Below are positions 2,326 to 24,623 of a stretch of 35,583 nucleotides of DNA, piece after piece (the first letter of the stretch is position 1; every line of letters starts with the position of its first letter). The stretch spans positions 1 to 35,583 of the forward strand of contig CAMBZX010000009.1 of NCBI GenBank assembly GCA_945872185.1, given 5' to 3'. The stretch comes from Synechococcus sp. UW140. Lineage in GTDB: Bacteria > Cyanobacteriota > Cyanobacteriia > PCC-6307 > Cyanobiaceae. The translations under genes were made by a program, and so were the position numbers. The notes under the pieces were generated by a model. That model had not been told where the DNA came from, ran no database searches, and worked only from the letters and a program-made list of their open reading frames with translations.

Positions 2326-2329
2326 GGCC

Positions 2330-4006: not shown

Positions 4007-4605
4007 CCAGCACCCCCATCCCACCTCCTGACCAGGCTGTCAGCCACGGCGAAGGCCAGCACGCCAGTCACAATCTCACGGGCTTCATCATTTTTCTCTG
4101 CTCCGAGAGCGTCATCTTTCTGGCGTTCTTCAGTGGCTACGCCATCCTGCGCCTCTCCGCCCTCGACTGGCTGCCGGCCGGTGTCGACGGGCTCGAATGG
4201 CGCATGCCGCTGATCAACACGGTGGTGCTGGTCTCCAGCTCGCTGACGATGGTGGTGGCGGAACACTTCAAGGGCAAGGAGAAGGTCTGGCTGTTCCGGG
4301 CGTTCTGGCTGCTCACCATGGCCATGGGGGCCTACTTCCTCTACGGCCAGGCGGTGGAATGGAGCAGCCTGAAGTTCGGCTTCACCTCCGGCACCTTCGG
4401 CGGCACCTTCTATCTGCTCACCGGCTTCCACGGCTTGCATGTGGCCACCGGCGTTCTGCTGATGGGCCTGATGCTGTTCAAATCCTTCATCCCCGGCAAC
4501 TACAGCGGCGGCGAAGAGGGGGTGAAAGCCACATCCCTGTTCTGGCACTTTGTGGATGTCATCTGGATCATCCTGTTCGTGCTGCTTTATGTCTGGAGAG
4601 CCTGA
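4003..4605 (+). CDS. ctaE: Heme-copper terminal oxidase subunit III
   Basis: A 200-residue membrane protein matching cytochrome oxidase subunit III of the shorter bacterial type, with about five hydrophobic helices. Recognisable family segments are ESVIFLAFFSGY near residue 36 and GFHGLHVATG near 140. Its ATG overlaps the ctaD stop (ATGA). The downstream GMC gene begins 3 bp after its TGA, behind a GGAGAG ribosome-binding site lying within the ctaE 3' end. The subunit stabilises subunit I and may channel O2. It belongs to the same alternative oxidase as the CuA-less ctaC upstream. Confidence 0.94.
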   Translation: MTSTPIPPPDQAVSHGEGQHASHNLTGFIIFLCSESVIFLAFFSGYAILRLSALDWLPAGVDGLEWRMPLINTVVLVSSSLTMVVAEHFKGKEKVWLFRAFWLLTMAMGAYFLYGQAVEWSSLKFGFTSGTFGGTFYLLTGFHGLHVATGVLLMGLMLFKSFIPGNYSGGEEGVKATSLFWHFVDVIWIILFVLLYVWRA

Positions 4606-4608
4606 CTC

Positions 4609-6123
4609 ATGATTATTGATGACAGCCATTACGACGTGATCCTCATCGGCAGCGGCGCCGGTGGCGGCACCTTGGCGGCCACCCTGGCCGAATGCGGCCA
4701 TTCCGTGCTGCTGCTGGAGCGCGGTGGGGTCATGCCCCGGGCCGACCAGAACCTGTCCGAAGTGGATCTATTCCGCAAGGAGCGCTATCACCCCGACGAG
4801 AAGTGGTTCGGCACCGACGGTGATCCCTTCTCACCCCAGATGGTGCATGCCATCGGCGGCAACACCAAGATCTGGGGCGGCGTGCTTGAACGCATGCGCG
4901 AACAGGAGTTCAGTGGCGTCAAGCTGCAGGAGGGCCCCTCCCCGGACTGGGAACTGCGCTACGCCGACCTGGCTCCCTGGTATGAACAGGCCGAGAAGCT
5001 GTATCACGTTCATGGCGTGGCCGGGGCCGATCCCACCGCCCCCGCCCGTGAAGGCGCCTATCCCGCCGCCCCAAGGCCCGTGGAGCCGTTCCTGGTGGAA
5101 CTGCGCGCCGCCCTGGAGCGCCAGGGCCTCCATCCCTACGACCTGCCGCTGAGCTGGTCAGATTCGGCCGTCGATCCCAGCGGTGATGCCGAGCTGTTCG
5201 GCATCAATCCGGTGCGCGCCAGCAGCAACGTGGTGGTGAAGGAGCACGCCCGCGTGGTGCAGCTGCACGTCAATCCCTCCGGCCAGGAGGTGCGGGGCGT
5301 CGAGGTGGACATCGCCGGCCAGCGCTGGCTGTTTCAGGGCCATCAGGTGGTGCTGGCCGCCGGCGCGATCGGCACCCCCGAAATCCTGCTGCGCTCCGCC
5401 ACCGAGCACCATGCCCGCGGCCTGGCCAACGGCTCCGACCAGGTGGGCCGCAATCTGATGAAGCCCCAGCTCACCACGATCCTGCAGTTGGCCGCCTCCC
5501 CCAACTCCGGTCGCTACGCCCGCAGCCATGGCATCACCGACTTCTACTGGGGCGATAAGAACGTCGACTTCCCGCTCGGTTCGATTCACAGCGGCGGTGG
5601 TGTCCTCCAGGACGCCCTGTTCGCCGAATCGCCGCCGGTGCTCTCCCTGGTGTCGCGCTTGCTGCCCGATTTCGGCATTGAACAACTGGCCTCCCGCTCA
5701 ATCACCTGGTGGGCGATGAGCGGCGTGCGACCCGATCCCCACAACCGGGTGCTGCTGCGGGGCAACCAGCTGCAGATCCACTACACCGCCAACAATCGCG
5801 AAGCCCACGACCGCCTTGTCTACCGCTGGATTGACAGCCTCAAAGCCGTGGAGGCCGACCCGTTGACCGTCGTCACCAAGGCAGCCCCCACCCATCCCCG
5901 CGGCGAAGCGCCCCTGCCGGTGATCGGCGCTGCCTGTGGCACCTGCCGCATGGGCTCCGATCCCGCCACCTCGGTGGTGAACCTGGAGGGCCGCAGCCAT
6001 GAGGTCCCCAACCTCTGGATTGTCGATGCCAGCGTGTTGCCTTCCTGTCCGTCGGTGGGCATCGGCCTCACCGTGATTGCCAACGCCCTGCGCATCGGCC
6101 ATGCCCTGAGGTCTTCGCTGTGA
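4609..6123 (+). CDS. GMC-family flavoprotein with missing catalytic pair
   Basis: A 504-residue GMC-type flavoprotein. The N-terminal FAD dinucleotide site is intact (ILIGSGAGGGTLA, about 11-23; E37 of LLERGG binds the adenosine ribose). The C-terminal GMC domain ends in NLWIVDASVLPS. The motif normally reading HxxGTxRMG is here GAACGTCRMG, with A441 at the catalytic His position. The usual N-P before SLT is VGIGLT, with G484 at the His/Asn position. Both catalytic residues therefore look substituted. No signal peptide is obvious. A GGAGAG site precedes the ATG, and the stop overlaps the next GTG (GTGA), tying it to both oxidase and glycosidase. It may be an electron-transfer or regulatory flavoprotein, or an enzyme with different chemistry. 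Confidence 0.88.
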   Translation: MIIDDSHYDVILIGSGAGGGTLAATLAECGHSVLLLERGGVMPRADQNLSEVDLFRKERYHPDEKWFGTDGDPFSPQMVHAIGGNTKIWGGVLERMREQEFSGVKLQEGPSPDWELRYADLAPWYEQAEKLYHVHGVAGADPTAPAREGAYPAAPRPVEPFLVELRAALERQGLHPYDLPLSWSDSAVDPSGDAELFGINPVRASSNVVVKEHARVVQLHVNPSGQEVRGVEVDIAGQRWLFQGHQVVLAAGAIGTPEILLRSATEHHARGLANGSDQVGRNLMKPQLTTILQLAASPNSGRYARSHGITDFYWGDKNVDFPLGSIHSGGGVLQDALFAESPPVLSLVSRLLPDFGIEQLASRSITWWAMSGVRPDPHNRVLLRGNQLQIHYTANNREAHDRLVYRWIDSLKAVEADPLTVVTKAAPTHPRGEAPLPVIGAACGTCRMGSDPATSVVNLEGRSHEVPNLWIVDASVLPSCPSVGIGLTVIANALRIGHALRSSL

Positions 6124-8897
6124 CGATCACCCCAGCCGCCCCTATTCAGATCGACACCATCAAGCCCTCCGAGGCGCGACGGATGGCCGAGCGCGACTAT
6201 GACATCAGGCCCTGGAGCCTCTGGGGCACCTACCTGAGCGAACGCCAGTGGGGCACCGTGCGCGAGGACTACTCCGCCGATGGCGACGCCTGGACCTCTT
6301 TCCCCCATGACCATGCCCGCTCCCGCGTCTACCGCTGGGGTGAAGACGGCCTGCTGGGTCTGTGCGACGAACAGTGCCGCCTCTGCTTTTCGCTGGCCCT
6401 GTGGAACGGCGCCGATCCGATCCTCAAGGAGCGGCCCTACGGCCTCGGCAATCCGGAAGGCAACCACGGCGAAGACCTCAAGGACTACTTCTTCCACCTC
6501 GCCAACACCCCCACCCACAGCTTCATGCGGGGGCTCTACAAGTATCCGCAGCGGGCCTTTCCCTACGAGCAGTTGGTGGCTGAAAATGGCCGCCGCGGGC
6601 GCGATCAACCCGAATATGAACTGATCGACACGGGCATCTTCAACGAGAATCGCTACTTCGACATCTTCATAGAATATGCGAAGGCGGGGCCTGAGGATCT
6701 GCTGATCCGGGTGCGAGCCACCAACCGCGGCCCTGAAGCGGCACCGCTCACCCTGCTGCCCACTCTGTGGTTACGCAACACCTGGCGCTGGGGCTATCCG
6801 GACGAGATCGAGCACAGCATCGCCCTGGCCCCCACGGCGGCCAACGATCCCTCCAGCAGCTCCATCGTCACCGACGTTGTTCCCCACCTCGGCACCTATC
6901 AGCTCGATTGCCAGCAAGCCGGGCGCTGGATCTTCACCGATAACGAAACCAACAGTGAGCGGCTCTGGAATCAACCCAACCCCACCCCCTTCCAGAAGGA
7001 CGGCTTCCATCGCCATGTGGTGAATGGCGAGCTGGCTGCGGTGAATCCGGCCCTGTGCGGTAGCAAGGCGGCCCGGGTGCTGGAGCACACCCTCGCCCCC
7101 GGCGAAGAGTGGGTGGTGGAGCTGCGCCTGCATCGCATCGACGGCACCGCAGGGGTGCCCTCCGCTGACATCGCCAACGGGTCAGCCAGCTCGCTGGCCA
7201 GCAGCTGGGATGCCACAACGGCCGCGGCTGACAACTATGCAGCGATCTTCGCCGACCGCGAGCGGGAATGGCTGGAGTACTTCGATAATCGTGTGCCCGG
7301 CCTGTCCGAAGACGACCGCCGCATCCATCTGGCCGGTACCGCGGGTTTGCTCTGGTGCAAGAAGTACTACGGCTGGAGCGTGATGCGCTGGCTGGCAGGC
7401 GACCCCACCGGCGCCGTTCCGCCCCACGAGCGCCTGAACACCCAGAACGCCTTCTGGAATCGGCTGCACGCCCACGACGTGATCTCGATGCCGGACTGCT
7501 GGGAGTATCCCTACTTCTGCCAGTGGGATCTGATGTTCCACGCGGTGGCCTTCGCCAACTTCGATCCGGCCACGGCCAAGGAGCAGTGCATGCTGCTGCG
7601 CAAACCCCACTACACCGCCCCCAACGCCCAGACCCCTGCTTACGAGTGGGCCCTTTCTGATCCCAATCCACCGATCGGCGCCTGGGCGGCGATGCGCATC
7701 TACCAGATTGATCGCAAGGCCACCGATGCTCCCGATCTGCCCTTCCTGCGCACGGCCCTGCGCAAGCTGGTTCTGGAATACGGCTGGTGGGCTAATCGCA
7801 ACGACCGCTCCGGCGACAACGTGTTTGAAGGCGGCTTCCTCGGCCTCGACAACATCGCCGTGTTTGATCGGCGCTTCCCCCTGGCCGACGGCAGCATCAT
7901 CGAGCAGTGCGACGGCACCGCCTGGATGGCCTCGCTCAGTCTCAACCTGCTGCAGATCGCCGTGGAGCTGAGCCGCGAGGAGCCGGAGTACGCCGACATC
8001 TGCGAGCGTTTCGTGGTGGATTTTGTGCAACTGGCGATCGGCCTCAACAAGCCCGCCGGCCGCAGTTACGTCAACTGGGACGAGGAAGATGGCTTCTATT
8101 ACGATGTGATCAAACGGCCCGACGGCAGCGTTGACTACCTGCGCACCCGTTCGCTCTCGGGCCTGGTACCGCTACTGGCGGTGCAGAGCTTCGACATCGA
8201 CACCGTGCAACGGCTGCCGATGCTCGACGTGACCAAGACCCTGGCCTGGTTTGTCCACGAGCGCACCACCCCCTCCTGGATGCTGCACAATCTGGCGATC
8301 TGGAACAACGATCGAGTGCTGTTCACTCTGGTGCCAAAAGATCGCCTGCAACGCATCTGCGAACGACTCTTTGATGAGGATGAGTTTCTCTCCCCCCACG
8401 GCATCCGTTCCCTTTCCAAAGTGTATGAAAAACAGCCCTACACCTACACCGAAGGCAGCCAGAGCCAGACGCTCGCCTACAGCCCGGCCGACAGCCCGGT
8501 GGCGATGTTCGGCGGCAATTCCAACTGGCGTGGGCCGGTGTGGATGCCGATCAACTTCTTGCTGATCGAGTCGCTGCAGAAGTTCGCCCATTTCTATGGC
8601 GACAGTCTCAAGGTGGAATTTCCCACCCGCTCCGGCAACTGGCTGAATCTCTGGGAGGTTTCACTGGAACTGGAGAAGCGGTTGGTGGGCATCTTCCGCC
8701 GTGACGACCAGGGTCGTCGCCCCTTCAATGGCAACGAAGAGACCTTCCAGAATGATCCCCACTGGCGCGATCTGATCCAGTTCAACGAATACTTCCACGG
8801 CGACAATGGCAGCGGCGTCGGTGCCTCCCACCAGACCGGTTGGAGCGCGATGGCCTGCAAGATGCTCAGTCAGCTGTCCAACTACCCCGACGACTGA
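6120..8897 (+). CDS. GH63/MGH1-like glycoside hydrolase (glucosidase family)
   Basis: A 925-residue protein of the bacterial 'glucosidase' group related to GH63/MGH1-like (alpha/alpha)6-barrel hydrolases. The N-terminal third is a beta-rich domain with SLWGTYLSERQWGTVREDYS near residue 32. The barrel includes WEYPYFCQWDLMFHAVAF near 462 (a WD pair typical of the general acid site) and NWRGPVWMPINFLL near 802, a signature shared with GH63 enzymes. It probably cleaves an alpha-glucoside or a compatible-solute glycoside; the substrate cannot be read from sequence. No signal peptide is visible, so it is likely cytoplasmic. The GTG start overlaps the GMC stop by GTGA, indicating coupling. A GC-rich hairpin follows the stop. 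Confidence 0.85.
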   Translation: MTITPAAPIQIDTIKPSEARRMAERDYDIRPWSLWGTYLSERQWGTVREDYSADGDAWTSFPHDHARSRVYRWGEDGLLGLCDEQCRLCFSLALWNGADPILKERPYGLGNPEGNHGEDLKDYFFHLANTPTHSFMRGLYKYPQRAFPYEQLVAENGRRGRDQPEYELIDTGIFNENRYFDIFIEYAKAGPEDLLIRVRATNRGPEAAPLTLLPTLWLRNTWRWGYPDEIEHSIALAPTAANDPSSSSIVTDVVPHLGTYQLDCQQAGRWIFTDNETNSERLWNQPNPTPFQKDGFHRHVVNGELAAVNPALCGSKAARVLEHTLAPGEEWVVELRLHRIDGTAGVPSADIANGSASSLASSWDATTAAADNYAAIFADREREWLEYFDNRVPGLSEDDRRIHLAGTAGLLWCKKYYGWSVMRWLAGDPTGAVPPHERLNTQNAFWNRLHAHDVISMPDCWEYPYFCQWDLMFHAVAFANFDPATAKEQCMLLRKPHYTAPNAQTPAYEWALSDPNPPIGAWAAMRIYQIDRKATDAPDLPFLRTALRKLVLEYGWWANRNDRSGDNVFEGGFLGLDNIAVFDRRFPLADGSIIEQCDGTAWMASLSLNLLQIAVELSREEPEYADICERFVVDFVQLAIGLNKPAGRSYVNWDEEDGFYYDVIKRPDGSVDYLRTRSLSGLVPLLAVQSFDIDTVQRLPMLDVTKTLAWFVHERTTPSWMLHNLAIWNNDRVLFTLVPKDRLQRICERLFDEDEFLSPHGIRSLSKVYEKQPYTYTEGSQSQTLAYSPADSPVAMFGGNSNWRGPVWMPINFLLIESLQKFAHFYGDSLKVEFPTRSGNWLNLWEVSLELEKRLVGIFRRDDQGRRPFNGNEETFQNDPHWRDLIQFNEYFHGDNGSGVGASHQTGWSAMACKMLSQLSNYPDD

Positions 8898-8900
8898 CCA

Positions 8901-8915
8901 GCGCCGTCACGGCGC
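8901..8915 (+). terminator. GC hairpin directly after the glycosidase gene
   Basis: GCGCCG-TCA-CGGCGC forms a perfect 6-bp stem with a 3-nt loop, beginning 3 nt after the TGA. There is no T tract, so it is at best a weak intrinsic terminator or a 3'-end stabiliser. It separates the oxidase/glycosidase operon from the second GMC gene 160 bp downstream. Confidence 0.4.
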
Positions 8916-9074
8916 CGCACCTCATCCTGGTGTTGCGATTTGATCCAGGGCTGCAGTGATTGCGATCCAACGATCGCATCGAGAGCCCCCTCAAGACGCT
9001 CCCCAGAGCCAACCCGTCCAGCACTCCGAAGCCTCGGCGTTCCCCGTTTCCAGCTCCCCCACCCGTTCCTCCTC

Positions 9075-10730
9075 ATGAGCTCCCCGTCTCCCAGCGCCGC
9101 CGCCGTCTCCGCCGCCAGCGGTGGTCCGAACTTCCACAGCTCACCCCTGCCCGATGCCAGCCAACTGCAGGTGGCCAACGGCGCCCACTTTGACGTGGTG
9201 ATCATCGGCAGCGGCGCCGGCGGCGGCACCCTGGCCCGCCATCTGGCTGGGACAGGCCTCAAGGTGCTGGTGCTGGAGCGGGGCGACTGGCTGCCCCAGG
9301 AACCCCAGAACTGGGATGCGGAGGCGGTGTTCCAGCAGAACCGCTATGTGTCGAAGGATCCCTGGCTCGACAAGCACGGCAAGGCCTTCCAGCCCGGCAG
9401 CCATTACTTCGTCGGTGGCGCCACCAAGATGTATGGCGCCGCCCACTTCCGCCTGCGCCAGCAGGATTTTGAAGAACTCGCTCACTTCGATGGCACCTCG
9501 CCGGCCTGGCCCCTGCGCTACGCCGACTTCGAGCCCTGGTACCAGCAGGCGGAGGAGATGTATCACGTGCACGGCCAGCGGGGCGAGGATCCCACCGAGC
9601 CCCCGTGCAGCGGCCCCTATCCCCATCCGCCGGTGGCCCATGAGCCGCGCATGCAGAAGCTGGTGGACGACCTGCGCTCCGGCGGGCTCCATCCCTTCCA
9701 CGCCCCCAGCGGCGTGCTGCTCGACGAGGCCAACCTGGCCTTCAGCCGCTGCCGCAAGTGCAACTGCTGCGATGGCTTCCCCTGCCTGGTGCACGCCAAG
9801 TCGGATGCGGAGGTGCTGGGGATGCGGCCGGCCCTGGCGTCGCCCACCGTGTCGCTGCTGACCCGGGCCCAGGTGAAACGCTTGATCACCGACGACTCCG
9901 GCCGCAGCGTCAAAGCCGTGGAGCTCGAACGCGACGGCGAACCGATGACCGTCAGCGGCGATGTGGTGGTGGTGAGCTGTGGCGCCGCCAACAGCGCCCG
10001 GCTGCTGCTGATGTCGGCGAACGACAAGCATCCCCGCGGCCTGGCCAACGGCTCCGATCAGGTGGGCCGCCACTACATGTTCCACAACAGCAAGGCGATG
10101 GTGGCCCTGGCCCACGAGCCGAATCTCACCGTGTTCCAGAAAACTGTGTCGATCAACGACTGGTATCTCGGCGATGCGGACTTCGACTACCCGATGGGCA
10201 ACATCCAGATGACGGGCAAGACCAGCGGCACGATCATGAAGGGCTATGCGCCGCTGGAAACCTTCCTGATGCCGGGCTGGAGCATGGACAAGATCGCCGA
10301 ACACGCGATCGACTTCTGGATCTCCAGCGAAGATCTCCCCGATCCAAACAACCGCGTGACCGTGACCGGCACCGGCCAGATCCAGCTGAGCTACACCCCC
10401 AACAATCTCACCGCTTCCCAGCGCCTGGTGAGCCGGCTGGAGGGCATGCTCGATCGCCTCTATCTGCGTAAGCACCTGGTGGAACGCCAGATCTACATCG
10501 CCAACAGCATGGGCATCGCCGCCGTGGGTCACCAGGCCGGCACCTGCCGCTTCGGCAGCGATCCAGCCAGCTCGGTGCTGGATCTCAACTGCAAAGCCCA
10601 CGAACTCGACAACCTCTACGTTGTCGACACCAGCTTCATGCCGACGATCGGCGCCGTGAACCCCTCGCTCACCGCCATCGCCAATGCCCTGCGGGTGGGC
10701 ACCCATCTGGTTGAGCGGCTGCGCGGTTGA
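9075..10730 (+). CDS. GMC oxidoreductase with cysteine cluster
   Basis: From the ATG at 9075 this is a 551-residue GMC flavoprotein dehydrogenase. The FAD site VVIIGSGAGGGTLA is at about 41-54 and LVLERGDW at 65-72. A cysteine-rich insert CRKCNCCDGFPCLVHAKSDA begins at C226 (C226, C229, C231, C232, C237). The C-terminal domain keeps H486 (GHQAGTCRFG) and N529 (VNPSLT), the expected catalytic pair. It likely oxidises an alcohol or sugar, passing electrons to a quinone or other carrier; the cysteines could hold an Fe-S centre, by analogy with FAD glucose/fructose dehydrogenases. The ORF track extends to a TTG at 8940, but those 45 residues look non-conserved, so I prefer the ATG. It is paralogous to the upstream GMC protein, which lacks the Cys insert. 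Confidence 0.9.
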   Translation: MSSPSPSAAAVSAASGGPNFHSSPLPDASQLQVANGAHFDVVIIGSGAGGGTLARHLAGTGLKVLVLERGDWLPQEPQNWDAEAVFQQNRYVSKDPWLDKHGKAFQPGSHYFVGGATKMYGAAHFRLRQQDFEELAHFDGTSPAWPLRYADFEPWYQQAEEMYHVHGQRGEDPTEPPCSGPYPHPPVAHEPRMQKLVDDLRSGGLHPFHAPSGVLLDEANLAFSRCRKCNCCDGFPCLVHAKSDAEVLGMRPALASPTVSLLTRAQVKRLITDDSGRSVKAVELERDGEPMTVSGDVVVVSCGAANSARLLLMSANDKHPRGLANGSDQVGRHYMFHNSKAMVALAHEPNLTVFQKTVSINDWYLGDADFDYPMGNIQMTGKTSGTIMKGYAPLETFLMPGWSMDKIAEHAIDFWISSEDLPDPNNRVTVTGTGQIQLSYTPNNLTASQRLVSRLEGMLDRLYLRKHLVERQIYIANSMGIAAVGHQAGTCRFGSDPASSVLDLNCKAHELDNLYVVDTSFMPTIGAVNPSLTAIANALRVGTHLVERLRG

Positions 10731-10759: not shown

Positions 10760-10870
10760 CCGGCCACCTGCGGCGCTCCGGCCTGCAGCGGCCGGATCCA
10801 CCAGCGGCCTTTGGCTGGCGGGGTTGCCATGATCCTGGGGCAGGCTGGACAACGGCCGGGCTGAGTGGAG

Positions 10871-12211
10871 ATGCGCACCTTGGACCCTCGCCCTGTGGAG
10901 CCGCTGCCGACAGCCCTGCGCCGCGACGCCCCGCTGTCCCATTCCGAGCGGCGGGTGCTGGTGGCGCTGGCCAGCGCCTGGGCCCTCACCGCCGGCTGGT
11001 TTCTATTTTGGCCGGTGCCCACCGAGGTGATCGGCCGCGGCGTCGTGATCGTGCCCGGTGGCGCCACCGTGATCGACGCCCGGGCCGAGGGCCAGATCCT
11101 CAGCCTGCCGGTGCGGGTCGGAGACGAGGTGCAGCGGGGCCAGACCCTGATCCGCCTCTTCCTGCCCGCCCTGGAGCAGCAGCTGCGCCGCCAGGAGAAG
11201 GATCTGAGCGAACTGATCCGCATCAACGCCGATCTCGACCAGCGCGACCGGGGGCGCCTGGCCTCGGCTGGGCGGTTGCGGGACACGGCCCTGGCCAAAC
11301 TCGAAGCCGACCGCCAGCGCTTTCAAGCCCTGCGCCGCATCTATGACCAGAAGGTGGCTGATTTCCGCCATCTGGCCCGCCGCGAGGTCGTGGCCCCCCT
11401 GGCCCAGGAGGTGGTGGCCAGCGAAGACCGGGCCGTCCAGCTGGGCAACAGCCTTGCCGAGGTGGGGATCCGCCAGCGGGAGGCGATCGATGTCTGGGAG
11501 AAGGTGAAGCTGGAGATCGAGACCGAGGCCCAGCGCCGTCGTTACGCCATCGACGATGCCCGCCGTGCCGTGCGGGTGACCCAGACCCAACTGCGTTACG
11601 ACGGCACCCTCAGCGCCGATCGCGACGGGCGCATCCTCGATCTGCAGGTGGTGCGCGGCCAGACCGTGAAGGCGGGGGAACGGCTCGGCACCCTCGGCAG
11701 CCGCCAGGGCGAAGCACTGCGCGCCGTGGCCTACTTCGCACCGGCCGATGCCCGCCGGTTGCGACCGGGCCTGGCGATGGAGGTGGTGCCGGACTGGAAT
11801 GAACGGGGCCGTTTCGGCGGCATTCGCGGACGGGTGCAACGGGTGAGCCTGCTGCCCGCCACCCCTGAGGATGTGAACACCACCATGGGCAATCCCCAGC
11901 TGGCCGAAGCCCTGGTGCGCAACGGGCCCGTGCTGCGCACCGAGATCGAGCTGCTGAGTGTCGACCCGAACCGCTCGGGCTCAGGGAGGCGATCCAGCCT
12001 GGACGGCTATCGCTGGACGATCAGCCGCGGCAGCAGTGTCTTCCCGATCCGCGAAGGGCTGACGCTCAAGGCCCATGGCTACGTGGAATGGCGCACGCCG
12101 GCCAGCTACCTGTTGCCGATCCTGCGCGACCTAACCGGCAGTTACCGCACCTTGCGCCAGCAGGAGCGCCAGGATGACCGCGAGCTGCGCCAGCGGGGCA
12201 CGCTGCCATGA
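10871..12211 (+). CDS. HlyD-type periplasmic adaptor (membrane fusion protein)
   Basis: A 446-residue adaptor. A short cytoplasmic N-terminus is followed by one transmembrane helix (about 28-47, LVALASAWALTAGWFLFW). Next come a split lipoyl/biotinyl domain (GQILSLPVRVGDEVQRGQTL, then DGRILDLQVVRGQTVKAGE), a long Arg/Glu-rich coiled-coil hairpin between the halves, and a beta-barrel tail. The arrangement, including YRWTISRGSS...IREGLTLK near the end, resembles adaptors of NHLM/NHLP peptide-export systems, though this is from memory. A GTG at 10865 is an alternative start; GGAG abuts the ATG. The stop overlaps the next small gene (ATGA). It should link an inner-membrane transporter to a TolC-like channel, but no transporter gene is adjacent. 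Confidence 0.87.
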   Translation: MRTLDPRPVEPLPTALRRDAPLSHSERRVLVALASAWALTAGWFLFWPVPTEVIGRGVVIVPGGATVIDARAEGQILSLPVRVGDEVQRGQTLIRLFLPALEQQLRRQEKDLSELIRINADLDQRDRGRLASAGRLRDTALAKLEADRQRFQALRRIYDQKVADFRHLARREVVAPLAQEVVASEDRAVQLGNSLAEVGIRQREAIDVWEKVKLEIETEAQRRRYAIDDARRAVRVTQTQLRYDGTLSADRDGRILDLQVVRGQTVKAGERLGTLGSRQGEALRAVAYFAPADARRLRPGLAMEVVPDWNERGRFGGIRGRVQRVSLLPATPEDVNTTMGNPQLAEALVRNGPVLRTEIELLSVDPNRSGSGRRSSLDGYRWTISRGSSVFPIREGLTLKAHGYVEWRTPASYLLPILRDLTGSYRTLRQQERQDDRELRQRGTLP

Positions 12212-12465
12212 CCAGGGACAACACCCCCTCAGCGACGACCGCCGGCAGCCTGCGCCATGAACTGCCCTGGCTGGCCCTGGAGGCCGCCTTGCTGGTGGTG
12301 CTGCTGCACGCCAATGCCCCGGAGGTGTGGTTCTGGTTCGCAGCCCTGCTGGTGCTGCTGATCTGGCGCACCATGGCCTGGCAGAACCGGCGCTGGGAAC
12401 GGCTCCAGGCCGAAGTTCAGGAGCCTCCGAACACCAGCGGCAGCTCCACCGGCAACCCCGGCTGA
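12208..12465 (+). CDS. Small membrane protein downstream of the HlyD-type adaptor
   Basis: An 85-residue protein, coupled to the adaptor gene by ATGA. Residues 20-35 (LPWLALEAALLVVLLH) and 40-53 (VWFWFAALLVLLIWR) are hydrophobic, consistent with two helices or a hairpin. A charged, Ser/Thr/Pro-rich tail follows. I recognise no family. Its last 49 bp overlap the 3' end of the convergent tolC-like gene, so this tail is constrained by two reading frames. Gene order suggests an accessory component of the same envelope export apparatus. Confidence 0.65.
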   Translation: MTRDNTPSATTAGSLRHELPWLALEAALLVVLLHANAPEVWFWFAALLVLLIWRTMAWQNRRWERLQAEVQEPPNTSGSSTGNPG

Positions 12466-14120
12466 GGCGGCACCGGCAGCAGTTCGCGCAGCAGCTGGGC
12501 GTAGCTCACATTGGCCAGCGTGGTCGATTCGGCCACCCCCTCCATCGCCCCGGTGAGGGTGGACACGGTGACGGCCACATCGCTGTAATCGGCCAGCCCC
12601 AGCTGATAGCGGGCGCGCACGTCGCGGAAGGCCTCGCGCGAGGCGCTGTAGGAGGCGCGGGCCGCCACGATCTGGCCCAGGGCGGCGCGATGGTCGTAGA
12701 AGGCGGCCTCCAGGCGCTGGCGGATGGCATTGCGCTCCCGGGCCAGGGTCTGATCGGTGCGGGCCGCGGCGGCGCGGCTGGCGGCCACCGCTCCGGCGGT
12801 GACGCCGCCATCGAAGAAGCGCCAGTGCAGCTGCAGGCCGGCGGCCCAGTCGGCGCTTTGATTGAGCAACTGGGGGATATGGGCCGAGCCGCAACAGCCC
12901 TCCAGCTGGATCAGGGGCTGGGTGATCACCCCCTCGCCATAGCCGGCTGAGGCCACCAGCCGCAGGCTGGGCAGCAGCTCGGCGGCGCGGCGATCAGCCT
13001 GGCGCAGCAGGGCATCGCGGGCGGCCTGCAGGGCCTTGAGCTGGGGGTTGTCGCTCCAGCCGCGCAGGATCGTCGGCTCCAGCTCCAGGGGCCAGGGTGG
13101 CTGCAGTCGCACCGCCTCGCTGGCCCGCAGGCTGACATCAAAGGGAACGTTGATCAGGTTGCTGAGCTGGCGCTGGCGGCTGAGCCGCAACGCCTCGGCC
13201 TGCTCCAGCCGATAACGGCTCTGTTGCAGGGAGGCCTCGGCCCGCAGCAGATCGAGCCGGGGCACCAGGCCCACCTGCTTGAGGGCCGCCACCTGATCAC
13301 GCACCACCGTGTCACTGGCGACGACGGCCTGGCGAATGCGCTGCAGTTGATCAGCCAGCTGCAAGCCGTAGTAGGCGACGCTGACATCCAGCTGCAGCTG
13401 ACGCAGCCGATCCCCGTAGCGCTGGCGCGAGGCCTTGAGGCTGTCCTCGGCCTCGGCGATGGCGGCGGTACGGCCCGGGCTGATCAGCTCCCAACCCAGC
13501 TCCATCCGGGCTGCCGCCGCGCCGACATTGGTCTGCAGCACATTCCAGCCCTGCGGCTTGACCAGAAACGGCGATCCCACCGGGTAGAAGCCGACATTGT
13601 CGGTCCAGACCGAGCTGTAGGAGCGCTCCTGGCGGTACCCCCCCGCCAGGTTCAGGCCCAGCTCGGGCCACCAGCGCCCGCGGGCCGAACCGACCAGATC
13701 CTGCTGCTCGCGCACGCTCAGCACGGCGGCGGCCAGATCGGGATCGTTGCGCAAGGCCACCAGCAAGGCCTCGGCCAGGCTGAGGCGCTGACGCCGCTGG
13801 ATGCGCACCGCCGCCGGCGTGGTGGGCAAGGCGGTGGCAGCCGGCGCCGGCAGGCCCTCGAGAACGGCCGCAGCCGCCGGCCCTGAGCCCTGCGCGTCTG
13901 AAGCCCCCTCAGACTCGGCCGAGCCCGGCAGCAGGCTGCGGTCCAGCAGCTCCAGATCGTGCTGGAAGCCCTGCAGGCTGCGCAACAGCGCCGAGGAGGG
14001 GGGAGGCAGTCGCTGCGGTTGGGGCGCCGGGATCAATGGCTGGGCCAGGGCTGGCGGCAGCGCTGCCAGAAATCCGAAGGCCAGCCCGGGGGCGGACCGC
14101 AGCCAGCGGGGCCGGATCAT
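12417..14120 (-). CDS. TolC-family outer membrane factor (copy 1)
   Basis: A 567-residue TolC/OEP-family channel when started at the ATG at 14120. A signal peptide covers about residues 1-26 (FGFLAALPPALA-QP). Two OEP repeats follow, with RLSLAEALLVALRNDP at the first helix, PFDVSLRASE mid-protein, and RARYQLGLADYSDVA near the C-terminus. The protein would form a trimeric outer-membrane/periplasmic conduit for export. The ORF-track extension upstream is a frame through the two small membrane genes. The ATG overlaps the preceding stop (ATGA). It is clearly paralogous to the TolC at 22865-24556, including GCCG. Its 3' end overlaps the plus-strand small gene by 49 bp. The Pro-rich linker after the signal peptide is unusual but shared by both paralogues in looser form. 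Confidence 0.92.
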   Translation of the reverse strand: MIRPRWLRSAPGLAFGFLAALPPALAQPLIPAPQPQRLPPPSSALLRSLQGFQHDLELLDRSLLPGSAESEGASDAQGSGPAAAAVLEGLPAPAATALPTTPAAVRIQRRQRLSLAEALLVALRNDPDLAAAVLSVREQQDLVGSARGRWWPELGLNLAGGYRQERSYSSVWTDNVGFYPVGSPFLVKPQGWNVLQTNVGAAAARMELGWELISPGRTAAIAEAEDSLKASRQRYGDRLRQLQLDVSVAYYGLQLADQLQRIRQAVVASDTVVRDQVAALKQVGLVPRLDLLRAEASLQQSRYRLEQAEALRLSRQRQLSNLINVPFDVSLRASEAVRLQPPWPLELEPTILRGWSDNPQLKALQAARDALLRQADRRAAELLPSLRLVASAGYGEGVITQPLIQLEGCCGSAHIPQLLNQSADWAAGLQLHWRFFDGGVTAGAVAASRAAAARTDQTLARERNAIRQRLEAAFYDHRAALGQIVAARASYSASREAFRDVRARYQLGLADYSDVAVTVSTLTGAMEGVAESTTLANVSYAQLLRELLPVPPQPGLPVELPLVFGGS

Positions 14121-14389
14121 GGCGGATCGGTCCTGGGCGGCGACGGCAATGGCCCTGAAGGGGGCGGGGGCGGGGCCGCCATGGCGTGGGAAGCCTGCAT
14201 CAGATCGTGGAGCCCCAGGGTGGTGCGGGCCAGGCAACCAATTGAGAAACAGATGGCGGCGCTGCCGAACAGGCCCAGCTTCGCCTCCTGGGTCTCGCCA
14301 TCGATGCGGGTCATGGCCAGCAGCACCACACCGGCAGCCAGCCAGGGCAGGGTGACGACCAGGGCGATCTGGGAGCGGGTCATCGCCAT
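14117..14389 (-). CDS. 90-aa two-helix membrane protein with GLFGxAAICFSIGC motif (copy B)
   Basis: A 90-residue protein with helices at about 8-26 and 38-55, then a Pro-rich tail (APPPPPSGPLPSPP). The second helix contains GLFGSAAICFSIGC, nearly identical to GLFGNAAICFSIGC in the adjacent upstream gene product, also 90 residues. It starts at the ATG sharing one base with that gene's TGA, and its stop overlaps the tolC start by ATGA. Three genes are therefore translationally coupled. I know no named family for it. Context suggests a small inner-membrane component of the export system, perhaps partnering its paralogue. Confidence 0.75.
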   Translation of the reverse strand: MAMTRSQIALVVTLPWLAAGVVLLAMTRIDGETQEAKLGLFGSAAICFSIGCLARTTLGLHDLMQASHAMAAPPPPPSGPLPSPPRTDPP

Positions 14390-14661
14390 CAGCGCAGGCC
14401 GAGTTGCTGGCGCAACTGCACCTCCAGCTGGCGCACGGCGTTGACCCGGGCCATGGCCCAGGAGAGCTTGCAGACGCAGCCGATCGAGAAGCAGATCGCC
14501 GCATTGCCGAACAGCCCCCAGGCATGGCTCTGCAGGGCGAAATCCTCCTCGAGCAACAGCCGCAACGCCAGGATCACCAGCAGCGACGCCACCACCCAGG
14601 GCCCGTACACCCAGCCCACAAAAAACTGATCGACAAACAGCCGGCGGGGCGGCGTGGCCAT
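14389..14661 (-). CDS. 90-aa two-helix membrane protein with GLFGxAAICFSIGC motif (copy A)
   Basis: From the ATG at 14661 this encodes 90 residues. Helix one is at about 13-36 (FFVGWVYGPWVVASLLVILALRL, in part) and helix two at 48-64 (GLFGNAAICFSIGCV), followed by a basic, Gln-rich amphipathic tail. A GAGG sits just before the ATG; the ORF-track start 24 bp upstream is a TTG. It is the first gene of the small-small-tolC operon and a tandem paralogue of the next gene. The function is not recognised. Two cysteines in helix two are shared by the pair, which may matter for packing or metal or disulphide chemistry. Confidence 0.73.
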   Translation of the reverse strand: MATPPRRLFVDQFFVGWVYGPWVVASLLVILALRLLLEEDFALQSHAWGLFGNAAICFSIGCVCKLSWAMARVNAVRQLEVQLRQQLGLR

Positions 14662-14938: not shown

Positions 14939-17284
14939 TCAGCTAACGCTGACGATATGGACGCTCAGATCGTTCCAATCGTAGTCGGAGTGAACACCCT
15001 TGAGGTCCTCGAATCCGAGATGGTTTTTTCCGAGCAGCCGCATCTGCGGGTTGTCGCCGTCGGCGGCGTCGGCCGGGCCGGAGCAGAAGACATTACCCTC
15101 CTGCGTGATCAGAACGGGGCTGAAAAGGCCGTCCTGCTTGACATCCCAAAAGAGGTCTGAGGAGATTGTCCTGCCTGTCTGTCTGATCTGAAAACCGGGA
15201 TCCAGCAGGAAGTCGATCTGCTCGCGGAACAGATCACTGTTGATGGCGATCTTCTGATCGCCGACCGTGCCGAGCGGCAGACCAGTGACGGAATCAACAT
15301 TGAGCCTGACGAAGCCGAGCCGGTTCTCGAAGGCACAGTCGGTGCTGACGCTGAGCTCGACCCGCTGGCCCTCGCGGAGCTGCAGCAGGCCATCGGTGGC
15401 AGAGGCCTGGGGAGCGGCGATCTGATCGAGGGCGGAAGGTGTGGTCCCGACTGGATCAGCGATCACATTGAACTGCAGGCTCGCTGGCTGGGAGCCGTCG
15501 TCAGTGCGGAGCAAGACCTCGAAGTTGCCCGTGTCGCCCACAGCGCGAATCTCGGTGGAAACGCTGTCGCGGCCATCGCCGCTGCGCGACAGCAGCCGGA
15601 ACTCGAGCGTTTCTCCGACCTGGAGCAGGACGCTCTCACGGCCGAGGGACTGGAGCTGACTGGCCTCGGCCGTGGTGCCCCCGATGCTGCCGATCACCTC
15701 GGAGCGCCCATCCTTGCGTGTGCGCAGGATCTCGATGTGCATGGGGCGTTCGCCCTCTTGCTTGGTGGCCTGGAGCAGGACGGTGAGCAGGCCGAAGTCC
15801 TCGCTGACCACCTGCAGGCTGTCGCCGTTGAGAACCAGGGCAGGGGGAGTGGGGGCGTTCTTGCGGAAGGACTGGAACCAGTCGATCAGGTTCTGGTCGG
15901 TGCCTGCGGGATGGTCCTTGGAGGCGAGGAGGGCGTTAAGAAATGCTTGGTCGTGGGAAGCTCCATCAACTGGTACCAAGGTCACCTTGGGGCCACCGGC
16001 CTCGGCAAGCCCCGGGTCGACGAGCTCGGGGGGCAGCGCCTCATCCTCAAGCCCGTACCAGGCCTTCAAGGGTGTGCTGTAGGTCCAGTAGCGGGGTGAG
16101 TTGGCCTTGATCTCCTCCAAGAACTGGCGCACCACCCCCACTGGACGATCCAGCGCCCCATCGACGAGCATCTCGGCGCCAGTGAAGCCGGGGGTCGTCG
16201 TCCAGACCTCCCGGCCATCACGGATCACATTGACCTGCCAGGCATCGTTGCTGAAGACGCTTGGCGGCCCAATTCGGACGACCGCATCGCCAAACTCGGC
16301 AAAGCGTTTGATCACCTCTCGATAGGTCACGTCAAGAGGATTGCGGATGACTTCACCTATGGAACTTATGGCTGCAGGGATCACCGCGTCTTTGACAATG
16401 GCATCAAACAGGCCGCTCAGCCCCTCCCAGGACTCATGGCTGCGGAGCAGGATGCCGACGCACAGCGGTATCCAGGCGCCGGGGTCAAGAGGTTCCTTGG
16501 GATCCATCATCTGGCGGCTTATCCACCATCGGAAGGACTTTTCAAACTCATTAAATGGGGTCTCGGCGGCGACTGCCGCCACCGGAATCTGAAGGGCCTC
16601 CAGGGCCTGCAGGGACCATTGGGTGTTTGCGCCGCCTTGGGACTGGCCAGTCAAAAAGAGTTGGCTGGGCTGTATGCCCAACCCACTCAGCACCGATCGA
16701 CTGGCCTCTAAAAAACCGACGATGGCCTCTGTGGTTGGCTTCTTGACGGCATAGGCCTGCTGTATGTTATTAACGCCAAAGCCGACATAGTCGGCGGCGA
16801 TCATGCTGTAGCCCTTGTCCGCCAGCAGGGCGCCGGTGAGAAGCGTCTGGAAGGATCCCACCGCCCAGCCCCCATCCGGCTCTCTGAACACAACATTGGA
16901 GGATGTGGAATCGCGATTAAACAGAGTGCCATGACTATAGAGGGCAAGGGGCATTTTGCCGGGCATCTCCTGGCCTTCCACGCGATCGGGCACCATTAGC
17001 AAGCCGGAAACAACTTGCTGACGCGGATAATTCGGGTTATTGACATCAATCGTATAGCACACGCGATAGAAAGTTGCGCCACTGCTAATAGTCGGCGTCG
17101 CCAGAGTCTGGGGTATTGGAAAGTTGTAATAGGGCAGCTGCTCGGCAATCAGGGTCGTCAGCTCTTGGGCTGTGAGGCTGCCAATCAGCTCGTAACTGGT
17201 GCCTGGAGCGGTGATCGTCATCTCACCAATGCCGGTCAAGGTATTTTCGGAGGAAACGCTAGCAACACTTGCTCGAGTTTTCAA
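14939..17284 (-). CDS. Large alpha/beta hydrolase with C-terminal DUF4114-like domain
   Basis: A protein of 781 residues (760 if started at ATG 17221). The N-terminal part to about 470 is an alpha/beta hydrolase: YSHGTLFN oxyanion region near 116, nucleophile elbow GQSQGG (S215), acid D414 (GLEDEALPP) and H444 (DGASHDQAF), the triad expected of lipase/esterases. About 480-690 is beta-rich. The end (FWDVKQDGLFSP, GFEDLKG..SDYDWNDLSV) matches DUF4114, a domain common in secreted calcium-associated proteins. There is no Sec signal peptide, so type I export is possible given nearby HlyD/TolC genes. The TTG start overlaps the rluA-family stop (TTGA). Base composition in the N-terminal half is more AT-rich than neighbouring genes, hinting at transfer. 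Confidence 0.8.
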   Translation of the reverse strand: MKTRASVASVSSENTLTGIGEMTITAPGTSYELIGSLTAQELTTLIAEQLPYYNFPIPQTLATPTISSGATFYRVCYTIDVNNPNYPRQQVVSGLLMVPDRVEGQEMPGKMPLALYSHGTLFNRDSTSSNVVFREPDGGWAVGSFQTLLTGALLADKGYSMIAADYVGFGVNNIQQAYAVKKPTTEAIVGFLEASRSVLSGLGIQPSQLFLTGQSQGGANTQWSLQALEALQIPVAAVAAETPFNEFEKSFRWWISRQMMDPKEPLDPGAWIPLCVGILLRSHESWEGLSGLFDAIVKDAVIPAAISSIGEVIRNPLDVTYREVIKRFAEFGDAVVRIGPPSVFSNDAWQVNVIRDGREVWTTTPGFTGAEMLVDGALDRPVGVVRQFLEEIKANSPRYWTYSTPLKAWYGLEDEALPPELVDPGLAEAGGPKVTLVPVDGASHDQAFLNALLASKDHPAGTDQNLIDWFQSFRKNAPTPPALVLNGDSLQVVSEDFGLLTVLLQATKQEGERPMHIEILRTRKDGRSEVIGSIGGTTAEASQLQSLGRESVLLQVGETLEFRLLSRSGDGRDSVSTEIRAVGDTGNFEVLLRTDDGSQPASLQFNVIADPVGTTPSALDQIAAPQASATDGLLQLREGQRVELSVSTDCAFENRLGFVRLNVDSVTGLPLGTVGDQKIAINSDLFREQIDFLLDPGFQIRQTGRTISSDLFWDVKQDGLFSPVLITQEGNVFCSGPADAADGDNPQMRLLGKNHLGFEDLKGVHSDYDWNDLSVHIVSVS

Positions 17285-18231: not shown

Positions 18232-18592
18232 GGCCAGTCGCAGAGAACTACGGGGCGCAGGAATCTGGGGCCGCCGGGAGTGGGACTTAGCAATCGGGAG
18301 GGCTGGGACAGGACGCAGGGCAAGGCAAACCGATGGCGGGAGCAAGGACCGCCAGCTCAGGCGTTGATCCTAGGGACAACGATTGGCACGGGATCCCGCT
18401 CGGATCCTCGCAGGGCCAGGGGAGCCAGCAGCCTTGGCAGACCAAGGCTGCAGCCGGCGAGGGGCCTGGGCCGGTCCCTGGGCGTCGCCAGTTGGACAGA
18501 ACTTCGACGCAGGCAACGGCAAAAGGCCGCCATCGACACCCTGGAAAACAAAACCAAGATGCATAAACTCGGCCAACCGGAGTTCGCCGTTG
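18232..18592. promoter_or_regulatory. Divergent intergenic region between the RluA-family gene and the RND operon
   Basis: This 361-bp region must hold the promoters for the rluA-family gene (minus) and the adaptor-pump operon (plus). I see no convincing -35/-10 pair. It contains CAGTTGGACAGAAC at 18489-18502, matched 13/14 upstream of tolC copy 2, and an AT-richer patch around 18543-18570. Plus-strand frames run open through it, but the encoded sequence looks non-coding (basic, low-complexity). Confidence 0.45.
18489..18502 (+). promoter_or_regulatory. Shared 14-nt motif upstream of the RND adaptor
   Basis: CAGTTGGACAGAAC lies about 90 bp before the adaptor start. The same motif with one change (CAGCTGGACAGAAC) is found 54 bp before the start of the convergent tolC copy 2. 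AGTT-GGACAG-AACT is a short inverted repeat in this copy only. It is a candidate common operator for the two halves of the efflux system. Confidence 0.3.
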
Positions 18593-19660
18593 TTGGAGTC
18601 CAGAACAGCTGATCGGCGACCGGTGGCGGCCGTCCTGACCTGCCTGTTAGTGGTTTCGGCAGGGGCCAGCGGATGCAAGCCGGCGGCCGTGGCCACCACG
18701 CCGCTGAAGCAGGTCCAGCTTGATGAAGTCCGGCAACAGAATCTGCCTAGCACGGTCACCTATCAGGCGACCGTGGCGGCCATCGATGAAATTCCGATGA
18801 GCCCGGAGATTGACGGTCGAATCGTGGCGATGCCGATGCGCGAAGGCCAGTTTGTCAAAGCGGGCACGCTTCTCTACAAGCTGGATCAAAAACCCCTCGA
18901 GTCCCAGGCCAGAGCCGATCAGGCCGTGGCCGAGAATGCCCGACTCAATGCCCTGCGCTTCGTCGGCGCCAACTTTTCAGGAGCTGTTTCCAACAAGGAA
19001 AGCGCCGATTACGTTGCCACGGCGAAGCAGACCCAGGAGATCTTTCGCTCGCGAAAGGCGATGCTGGCCTACAAATCTGTCCGGGCACCGATTGATGGGC
19101 AGCTGGGAGCCATCAATAACAAGCTGGGCGATTATGTCACGGCAGGCACAACCGTGACCAGCCTGGTGGACAACCGGCGACTCTGGATCTCCATCGACGT
19201 CCCGGCCGCCCTCGGCCACCGCCTCCGGCTCGGGCAACGGGTCCAGGTCAAGGCCCCGGGTCTGTCGTCAGGACTGGGCCGGGCACTGGTCACCTTCATC
19301 GCGCCCGAGCTGGATGAGCAGCGCCAGACCCTGCTGGTGCGGGCCACCCTCGACAACCCCAGCGGCGTGCTGCGCCACAACCAGAGGGTGGAGGCCGTCC
19401 TGGAGTTAGGCCAGCGCCTCCAGACCACGATTCCGGCAACGGCCACCCAACTGCAAGCGGGGCAGAGCTTCGTCTTCGTGGCCGAGCCCCTGAACCAGGG
19501 GCGCTACCGCCTGGAGCAGCGACCGGTGCGGCTGGGCCTGCCCCAGAACGGTCACTTTCCCGTGCTCTCAGGCCTGCAGGAAGGCGAAACGGTAGTGATC
19601 GGCAATCTGGCCGAACTCAGCAATGGCGCCACCGTTTCGGCCGGGAGGACTGGACTGTGA
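18593..19660 (+). CDS. RND efflux membrane fusion lipoprotein
   Basis: Starting at the TTG at 18593 (GGAG about 10 nt upstream) this gives 355 residues. A basic n-region and hydrophobic core lead to a lipobox ending GASGC, so the mature protein is probably a lipoprotein anchored in the inner membrane. The lipoyl domain follows (SPEIDGRIVAMPMREGQFVKAGTLLYKLD), with a coiled-coil hairpin, then VRAPIDGQLGAINNKLGDYVTAG and a barrel. This is the AcrA/MexA-type periplasmic adaptor. The start is uncertain: the ORF track extends to 18383 without supporting sequence, and a GTG at 18623 is also possible. Its stop overlaps the pump start by GTGA. Confidence 0.9.
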   Translation: MESRTADRRPVAAVLTCLLVVSAGASGCKPAAVATTPLKQVQLDEVRQQNLPSTVTYQATVAAIDEIPMSPEIDGRIVAMPMREGQFVKAGTLLYKLDQKPLESQARADQAVAENARLNALRFVGANFSGAVSNKESADYVATAKQTQEIFRSRKAMLAYKSVRAPIDGQLGAINNKLGDYVTAGTTVTSLVDNRRLWISIDVPAALGHRLRLGQRVQVKAPGLSSGLGRALVTFIAPELDEQRQTLLVRATLDNPSGVLRHNQRVEAVLELGQRLQTTIPATATQLQAGQSFVFVAEPLNQGRYRLEQRPVRLGLPQNGHFPVLSGLQEGETVVIGNLAELSNGATVSAGRTGL

Positions 19661-22600
19661 GTCTGTCCGATGCGTTCATCCGTCGGCCAGTCCTCAGCTC
19701 AGTCTGCAGCATCCTGATCCTGCTGATGGGGGCCATCGCGTTGATGAGCCTGCCGATCGAAGCCCTGCCCAACATCGGGCCGCCGACCGTGCTGGTGACC
19801 ACCACCTTTCCCGGTGCCGATGCGATCACGATCGAGAAAACCGTGACAGCGCCGCTGGAGGAACAGATCAACGGCGTACCAGGAATGGATTACATCTCCT
19901 CCAACAGCGATAACGACGGCAATTGCGTCATCAATGTCTTCTTCAAACCCGGAACCGATATCAACGGAGCCGAAACCAATGTCCTGAACCGGGTCCAGAC
20001 GGCCCTCGCCCAGCTACCGGACTCCGTCAACAAACAGGGCGTGACCGTACAGGCTACATCCAGCACCTATCTGCTGATCTATTCCATCACCTCGGCCAAT
20101 GGCAACTATTCCAACACCTACCTCAATGGCCTAGCCCAGGACAAACTCGTCTATCCCCTCAGTCGCGCTGATGGGGTGGGTCAGGTGGTGGTGCTGGGCA
20201 GCGCGCCGCCCGCCTATCGGCTCTGGCTCAATCCATTCCGGCTGGCCCGCTACAACCTTTCCCCCCAGACGGTGGTCCGGGCCCTGCGGGAGAACAACAC
20301 GGTCCAGGTCGGCGGATCCCTCGGCAATCTGCCTGCCCTGCAGCCCGCAGACACCAGCTATCCGATCGTCATCAAAGGCAATCTGGAGAACGTCGACGAA
20401 CTCAACAACCTGCCGATAGCCCGCGCCCCAGACGGGACACTAATTCACCTCAGTGATGTTGGCCATGCCGAATATGGCATGCAGAACTACAACACCTATG
20501 CCCTCAATGTCAGCAACGGCAAACCGTCTGTGGCCTTTGGTGTGGTGCCGCTGCCTTCGGCCAATGCCCTGACCACATCAGCCGCAGCCAAGGCCGTGAT
20601 CAGCCAGTTCCAGAAGACCCTGCCCGAGGGAGTTGAGCTGAAGAAGGTCTACAACACGGCCGATTATGTGAACGCATCGATCAACAACACCAAACTGGCC
20701 CTCGCCGATGCGCTGGTATTGGTGCTGCTGATCATCTTCCTGTTTCTGCAGGATTGGCGCGCCACCCTGGTGCCCACCCTGGCGATGCCGATTTCACTGC
20801 TAGGGGCGATGACCTTTCTGAGCCTGGCCGGTTTTTCGCTCAACGAACTGACTCTGCTGGGCATCATTTTGGCCACCGGCCTGGTGGTGGATGACGCCAT
20901 TGTTGTGGTGGAAGCCGTATCCGAACGGATTGAAGCGGGGCGACCTGCCTTGAGCGCGGCCTCCGAGGCGATGCAGGATCTGACTGGGCCGATCATCGCC
21001 ACCGCCCTGGTGTTGCTGGCGATCTTCCTGCCGGTGTCCTTCTTCCCTGGACCAACCGGTGTGATCTACCGGCAATTCGCCCTGACGATCGTCTTCGCCC
21101 TGGTGATCTCCACCTTCAATGCCATCACCGGCAAACCGCTGCAGTCGGCGATGCTGCTTTCTGGCCATCCACCCCAGGTTTCCGCCCGCACCTACAGCTT
21201 GATCCTGTCGCTGCTGCTGGGGGGCTACGGCTGCTGGCGCAGCGGTTGGCTCACGGGGCTGGGCTTTGCCTTGGTCGCCTGCCTGGTCGGTGCCCGACTG
21301 CCGCAGATCTTTGCCACCTTCAACCGGCTACTGGCGAGGATCTCCAGAGGCCACCAAGCCCTGCTGAACCGCCTGCTGAAGCGGCACCGAATCATTTCTG
21401 CCGGCCTGGTGCTGGCGACCCTGCTGACGGGCGTGCTGTTCACCGCGGTGCCCTCAGGTTTCGTGCCGACGGAAGATCAGGACTACATCATGGGCATCAT
21501 TCAGTTGCCGGCCCGGGCCTCCCTGAAGGCCACCCGGGATGTCAGTCAGCAGGTGCAGAAAATTCTCAGCAAGTATCCCATCATCACCTCTGGTCAACTG
21601 ATCTCAGGCGTTGGCTTCAATGGCTCCACCCCCTATCAGGCCACCTTTCGTGCCGGCCTGCTGCCGATCGATCAACGACCGGGCGAAAAACTTTCAGCCC
21701 AATATCTGGTCGCTGACCTCAACAAGGAATTTGCCAAGATCACCAACGCCAAAGTTAATGCCCAGATGCCGCCTGCGGTGAATGGCTACAGCGCCCAGGG
21801 GGGACTTCAGTTTCAGTTCAATGATCTCAGTGGCGGCCAGATCTCCTTCAGCAACCTGCTGGGGCTGGCCCAGCAGCTGATCAACAAGGCCAAGAGCACA
21901 GGCCTTTACTCCAGCCTCTACACCCAGTTCATCAGCGATGCCCCGGTCTGGCGGCTGGAGATGGATCGCGAACGCCTCGCCTCCCTGGACATCGATTACA
22001 GCCAGGCTGCCGAAACCATCGGAATCCTGCTGGGCGGCAGCTTTGTCAATCCCACCTATGAGGGCATTCAATACCGCCAGGTTTATGTGCAGGCCGAAGG
22101 GGACAGCCGCAGCCAGCCCACGGACCTTTCCGGCTATTACGTGACCAATCGCCGCGGCCAGCAGATCCCGCTGGGCAACATCGCCAGCCTGAAGCTGGAC
22201 AGCGCACCGCCGGTGATCAATCACTACAACCTCAATCGTTCGATTCTGATTCAGGGCGACACCGCCCCCGGCAAGAGCAGCAGCGGCGGTCTGCAGCAAC
22301 TCGTCGACTCCTTCGGGCAGCTCAATCTGCCCCAGATCGGCATGGCCTTCTCCGGGCTGTCGCGGGCCCAGGCCGCCATCGGCTCCCAGACGGCCCTGGT
22401 CTTTGGGCTGGGGGTGGTGGTGGCCTACCTGGTGCTGGCGGCCCAGTACGGCAGCTACATCGATCCGTTGATCACCCTGGCCACCGTGCCCCTCGGCATT
22501 CTCGGCGGCATCCTGCTCCTGCTGGCCAGGGGCCTGGACAACAACATCTTTGCCCAGGTTGGGCTATTGACCCTGGTGGGCCTGGCGGCCAAGAACGGCA

Positions 22601-24556: not shown

Positions 24557-24609
24557 GGCAAACCGAAAGTTGTGACATTGCACCACAGAACAGGGCGTCG
24601 GTCCGTCCA

Positions 24610-24623
24610 CAGCTGGACAGAAC
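24610..24623 (+). promoter_or_regulatory. Shared 14-nt motif upstream of tolC copy 2
   Basis: CAGCTGGACAGAAC, differing at one base from the copy at 18489-18502, starts 54 bp upstream of the tolC ATG (gene on the minus strand). Its position suits an operator or promoter element. Confidence 0.3.

Follow-up and report, generated by a model that had tools for sequence, protein, structure and literature searches.

A picocyanobacterial adaptor-TolC gene block without a pump gene as a candidate variant of FUSC-type export machines

Which inner-membrane pump, if any, serves a gene block that encodes a periplasmic adaptor and an outer-membrane factor, but no transporter? The question is raised by a locus found in the window, i.e. 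the whole analyzed stretch of DNA (35,583 nt). This stretch is C9, one of the contigs in the draft genome (2.9 Mb; completeness 85.6%) of a picocyanobacterial lineage. The initial annotation of this region described an adaptor, a TolC protein and three two-helix proteins of 85–90 aa without a transporter gene, and all five genes were found (Table 1); the adaptor frame starts at position 10865, while the start given earlier (10871) is an ATG located two codons inside. The genes had also been described as all tightly coupled. This holds inside each strand, where adjacent frames share 4 nt (adaptor/S85), 4 nt (TolC/S90b) and 1 nt (S90b/S90a), but not across the block, which is composed of two convergent units, adaptor and S85 facing TolC, S90b and S90a, whose S85 and TolC ends overlap tail to tail over 49 nt. 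The block is therefore not a single operon.

Table 1 Features of the export block and of the neighbouring RND locus (positions within the window).
Feature	Position	Strand	Size and remarks
Adaptor, type-A HlyD/EmrA-like, periplasmic	10865..12211	+	448 aa
S85, two-helix protein	12208..12465	+	85 aa; adjoins the adaptor 3' end
TolC-family outer-membrane factor	12417..14120	-	567 aa; Pfam OEP 142.7 bits; TIGR01844
S90b, two-helix paralogue of S90a	14117..14389	-	90 aa
S90a, two-helix protein	14389..14661	-	90 aa; motif LxGxxxICFSIGC; helical-hairpin model
RND efflux set (adaptor, AcrB-type pump, TolC)	18383-24610		complete; about 4 kb from the block

A first point in the analysis of the block was whether the pump gene is truly missing. 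Adaptors of the same type (type A, at least about 61% identical) were identified in 25 of 149 related genomes, counting one broken copy (G011). Gene calls in these relatives came from a home-made caller based on codon usage, and gene labels from BLAST; most of the genomes are drafts, and the E-values of genome searches are per genome. The order adaptor-S85-TolC-S90b-S90a was kept across the ~35 type-A loci inspected in related picocyanobacteria, which represent about ten genera (named relatives include Cyanobium, Synechococcus, Aphanothece and Vulcanococcus) and three genomic settings. These are: (i) a GMC oxidoreductase gene on one side and a pseudouridine synthase gene on the other, (ii) glyoxalase/mutS2 and hemB as flanking genes and (iii) a pseudouridine synthase neighbour combined with a different left neighbour (L095 and L148). 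Neither a transporter gene nor any other gene was found inside the type-A block among these ~35 loci. An ABC gene lying within the cluster of a related genome, which the initial annotation had named as the finding that would speak against its reading, was sought in the same loci and none was found. The missing pump gene is a genuine feature of the block.

The surroundings of the block are more variable. In the window (1387-10730), coxB-coxA-coxC are followed by genes for a GMC oxidoreductase, an MGH1-like glycoside hydrolase and a second GMC oxidoreductase, and in L082 (3-8334) the same coxBAC-GMC-glycosidase-GMC order continues into the adaptor gene at intergenic distances of -4 to +4 nt, forming an apparent operon. 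As these genes are absent from the other settings of the block, its substrate is not defined by that neighbourhood. On the opposite side, a 760-aa protein (14939-17221) with an alpha/beta-hydrolase-like GQSQGG motif may be secreted; it gave no Pfam match, and no counterpart was seen at the same site in relatives. Broken adaptor genes were observed as well: in L098 (G011), S90 is intact but the type-A adaptor is split between frames, and in G025 the second copy of an adaptor gene (C6:2028-3239) carries stops.

The family of the adaptor points to the type of pump. The protein comprises one N-terminal membrane helix, two hairpin helices of ~70 residues, and lipoyl and barrel domains (structure model with pLDDT 78.5; helices 26-48, 101-172 and 177-247). 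In a PDB search, EmrA was its best structural relative by TM-score, at a sequence identity of about 14-17%, and Escherichia coli AaeA could be aligned to the adaptor profile across 218 columns (P 5.5e-6). In the tree of adaptors, type A forms one clade (95/100), with type B adjoining it and type C as the next group. The FUSC-linked type-B adaptors are the nearest kin of type A (about 50-56% identical), and their loci encode S85 and TolC, usually along with two FUSC proteins of half size; in type C, exemplified by contig C18 of the window's own genome, the order is adaptor, a 64-aa relative of S85 and FUSC. The nearest FUSC gene lies within 1 kb of the adaptor in 16/16 type-C cases and within 11 kb in 31 of 36 type-B cases (of the others, one is at 32 kb and four are on another contig), while for type A no FUSC_2 gene was found within 11 kb in any of 24 cases. 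Since some type-B adaptors have a distant or other-contig FUSC gene, the pump is often already detached in type B.

The adaptor had been called NHLM-like, and as a model match this stands, since it reaches 166.8 bits on TIGR03794, the NHLM adaptor model, against a cut-off of 156.2. It does not stand as a statement of function: FUSC-linked adaptors score 178-193 bits, i.e. above the block adaptor, so the model lacks specificity in this case, and the adaptor beside the double-ABC locus C83 of the same genome reaches 70 bits, far under the cut-off. The gene neighbourhoods of this adaptor lineage point to FUSC, and a label such as 'NHLP bacteriocin secretion protein', which these adaptors can receive, is likely to be an annotation problem. 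NHLM/bacteriocin export was rejected for the block, as there is no ABC gene at the locus and TIGR03794 is not specific. The best match to the ABC2 model TIGR03797 in the genome, located elsewhere, reached 553 bits versus a cut-off of 709.4. Three C39-peptidase/ABC double-transporter loci, all under the NHLM ABC2 cut-off, are present on the genome's own contigs C4, C82 and C83 (L107, L108 and L109, respectively).

Could the adaptor and TolC nevertheless serve another pump in trans, of the ABC, RND, MFS or EamA type? Besides the adaptor score above the NHLM cut-off, this would be in line with the C39-type ABC exporters of the genome, with the complete RND set about 4 kb from the block (Table 1) and with an EamA-type transporter that borders the block in L090, a similar insertion being present in L167. 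The adaptor-using ABC loci and the other adaptor-using exporters inspected in the genome, however, have their own adaptors nearby, and no NHLM ABC2 above the cut-off is encoded there. The RND set, tried as a partner, was rejected, since it comes with an adaptor and a TolC of its own and is missing from the block site in most relatives, having been seen near the block in only some of them (L084 and L098); the initial statement that there is no ABC or RND gene is valid inside the block, but an RND gene does lie in its vicinity. The EamA gene is confined to one genus and lies on the opposite strand, and the closest adaptors are FUSC-linked. Taken together, another pump in trans appears quite unlikely. 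The dedicated ABC ATPase of a type I secretion system was found inside none of the type-A blocks inspected (~35 loci).

S85, the smallest product of the block, is closely tied to the adaptor. Its family gave 92 matches in the 149 genomes, 91 of which are located directly 3' of an adaptor gene on the same strand (median distance 25 nt); the sole other match is on contig C461 of G032. The family has a conserved core (P-W-L ... N-A-P-E-V/L-W-F-W), and a profile built without the 64-aa protein of C18 matched that protein (E 2e-5). In G104, which belongs to another cyanobacterial family, matches to the adaptor, S85 and FUSC are adjacent. The balance of synonymous and non-synonymous changes in S85 is not clear, and part of the gene overlaps that of TolC. 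Comparison of S85 with Pfam gave no reliable family and no DUF1656 match; homology of S85 to DUF1656/AaeX by sequence was rejected on that ground and on an hhalign probability of 0.8%, and the joining of S85 and S90 into one family was rejected because there was just a weak 15-column match. By position, and by position only, S85 is the equivalent of AaeX/FusD, the fourth subunit of FUSC pumps. S85 constitutes a small-protein family tied to cyanobacterial adaptors of the type-A lineage, which bears on the role of AaeX/FusD-like subunits.

S90a and S90b are tandem paralogues, found in picocyanobacteria only, that share the motif LxGxxxICFSIGC, S90b being the divergent copy. Comparison of S90a with its counterpart in L082 revealed 25 synonymous versus 7 non-synonymous codon changes, i.e. 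a clear codon constraint, which is weaker in S90b, and S90a was modelled as a helical hairpin (pLDDT 82). The small proteins are real, with homologues at the same place in dozens of genomes. In a wider search, S90 was found in 66 of 400 genomes, representing 12 genera of the family. When 84,980 prokaryote species were scanned, the matching records bore cyanobacterial names with a single exception; titled Bifidobacterium breve, it is probably a misnamed assembly, since its contig and the S90 contig of the relative G022 are identical in length (22303). No S90 was found in viral contigs. Pfam gave no reliable family and a remote-similarity search no transporter-family match, and S90, marked by its invariant motif, is a protein family without a name.

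The distribution of S90 is instructive with regard to its role. Within the 149-genome set, S90 is present in 25/25 type-A genomes, and type A is present in 0 of the 122 genomes without S90; the tandem pair accompanies the block in all three settings and never occurs with type B, which has FUSC. This pattern, the predicted membrane hairpin and the invariant motif would fit a tripartite exporter with an inner-membrane unit of a new kind, in which oligomers of the paralogous hairpins S90a/S90b, possibly together with S85, take the place of the FUSC pump and supply the channel made up of adaptor and TolC. Such an assembly is very unlikely, both as a replacement for the FUSC pump and as a novel type of unit: these two-helix proteins have no visible energy-coupling domain, the remote-similarity search gave no match to a transporter family, and S90 also occurs where the exporter does not. 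S90 genes are kept between hemB and mutS2 at sites from which the block is absent (L093, L094, L156-L158, L161-L163, L165 and L170-L172), and a single S90 gene is left there in genomes without the block at that site, this being S90a in L094, L156-L158, L161-L163 and L170-L172. Moreover, two genomes that are 99% complete (G317 and G346) have S90 and no ADAP-like adaptor at E<=1e-20.

The same persistence of S90a without adaptor and TolC in several genera, as well as the genomes G058 and G213, which have the S90 pair but lack the block, could be taken to indicate that S90a and S90b are unrelated neighbours with a membrane function of their own, the export module consisting of adaptor, S85 and TolC only. 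We regard this as unlikely, given the 4-nt overlap of the TolC and S90b frames in the window and the retention of the pair beside the module throughout three settings and about ten genera. (The probabilities attached here to the competing explanations are judgements and partly overlap.) The initial annotation had also named a lack of association between the small proteins and the adaptor as a finding against its reading. For S85, this clearly fails; for S90, the association is found in every type-A genome, but S90 also persists without an adaptor. S90 is linked to the exporter without being dependent on it.

The FUSC family is the likeliest source of the pump. FUSC_2 genes were found in all 39 genomes with a type-A or type-B adaptor versus 19 of 110 others (counts that are not independent of ancestry), and a type-B adaptor is also present in all 22 type-A genomes outside three less complete ones (G000, G012 and G017). 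The search of G003 and G013 found no FUSC genes other than an adjacent pair close to the type-B adaptor. The window's own assembly has two FUSC genes only, on C18 and, encoding a 173-aa protein, on C48. The latter was rejected as a dedicated partner: G003 and G013 have the type-A block but no FUSC genes besides the pair by the type-B adaptor, so it is not required. In the window's assembly (85.6% complete), neither the type-B adaptor nor its neighbours could be located, possibly owing to an assembly gap, so pump sharing cannot be seen in the genome of the window itself. As a separate observation, ion-channel-like membrane proteins recur by FUSC-type or type-A loci (L080:7114-7896, L078:14543-15391, L106:8479-9192 and L095:13588-14307); the protein of L080 is assigned to Pfam Ion_trans_2, and those of L078, L106 and L095 resemble it by eye only.

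Based on these comparisons of sequences and loci, the explanation that we favour, with modest confidence, is that the block is a duplicated adaptor/outer-membrane module of a FUSC exporter, which has lost its local pump and uses the FUSC pair of the sister type-B locus. An adaptor-S85-TolC-FUSC cluster would have been duplicated, giving rise to a copy without its own pump gene. The FUSC pump encoded by the sister locus would sit in the inner membrane, where it would be contacted by the membrane helix of the adaptor and by S85, and the long hairpins of the adaptor would dock to TolC, so that small, probably acidic metabolites could be exported straight outside. S90a and S90b may be lineage-specific accessory membrane proteins of the type-A version. 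As to the substrate, a small organic acid is our guess, because FUSC pumps handle aromatic carboxylic acids. Of the two options offered by the initial annotation, i.e. a transporter encoded elsewhere or an unusual inner-membrane complex including the small proteins, the former is the better supported, and the pump type indicated is FUSC rather than NHLM/ABC or RND. The block would then show an efflux machine that has been separated from its pump in nature, and repeatedly so, which makes it testable if a single pump is able to work with two sets of adaptor and outer-membrane factor.

How, then, does the block compare with known systems? The NHLM/NHLP exporter is a three-gene system (TIGR03794/03796/03797), in which the partners of the adaptor are two ABC proteins (Haft et al., PMC2887384). 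The adaptor score above the TIGR03794 cut-off is common to both; unlike in that exporter, no ABC transporter gene occurs in any type-A block inspected, and the FUSC-linked adaptors surpass the block adaptor on TIGR03794. With the EmrAB-TolC (MFS) pump, the block shares a long-hairpin, membrane-anchored adaptor, for which the best TM-scores were obtained; it differs in having no MFS gene and in the low sequence identity given above. Closer parallels are found among FUSC pumps. In AaeXAB, the aromatic carboxylic acid efflux system of E. coli (L227), in which the role of AaeX is unknown (PMC9301823), a small membrane protein also adjoins the adaptor, and AaeA aligns to the adaptor profile; on the other hand, S85 does not match AaeX/DUF1656 and an AaeB-type pump is absent at the block locus. 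The fusaric-acid tetrapartite pump Bucl8-FusC-FusD-FusE includes FusD, a 67-aa protein of unknown role with an overlapping reading frame (PMC7682875). It has in common with the block an outer-membrane factor, an adaptor and a small protein with an overlapping frame, and the relatives of the block adaptor are linked to its pump family. The block differs from it by having no FUSC gene, two extra S90 proteins, a longer adaptor (448 aa versus 293 aa) and an outer-membrane factor gene convergent with that of the adaptor.

Compared with FUSC exporters in general, the block thus has an adaptor of FUSC-linked lineage, a small membrane protein coupled to it and FUSC proteins in the 39/39 type-A/B genomes, but neither a FUSC gene in the cluster (0/24 type-A loci within 11 kb) nor a DUF1656 small protein. 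The machine may differ in kind from FUSC exporters, because S90, absent from FUSC-linked loci, travels together with the block as one unit. On balance, these likenesses suggest that the block is probably a variant of the FUSC-type export machine.
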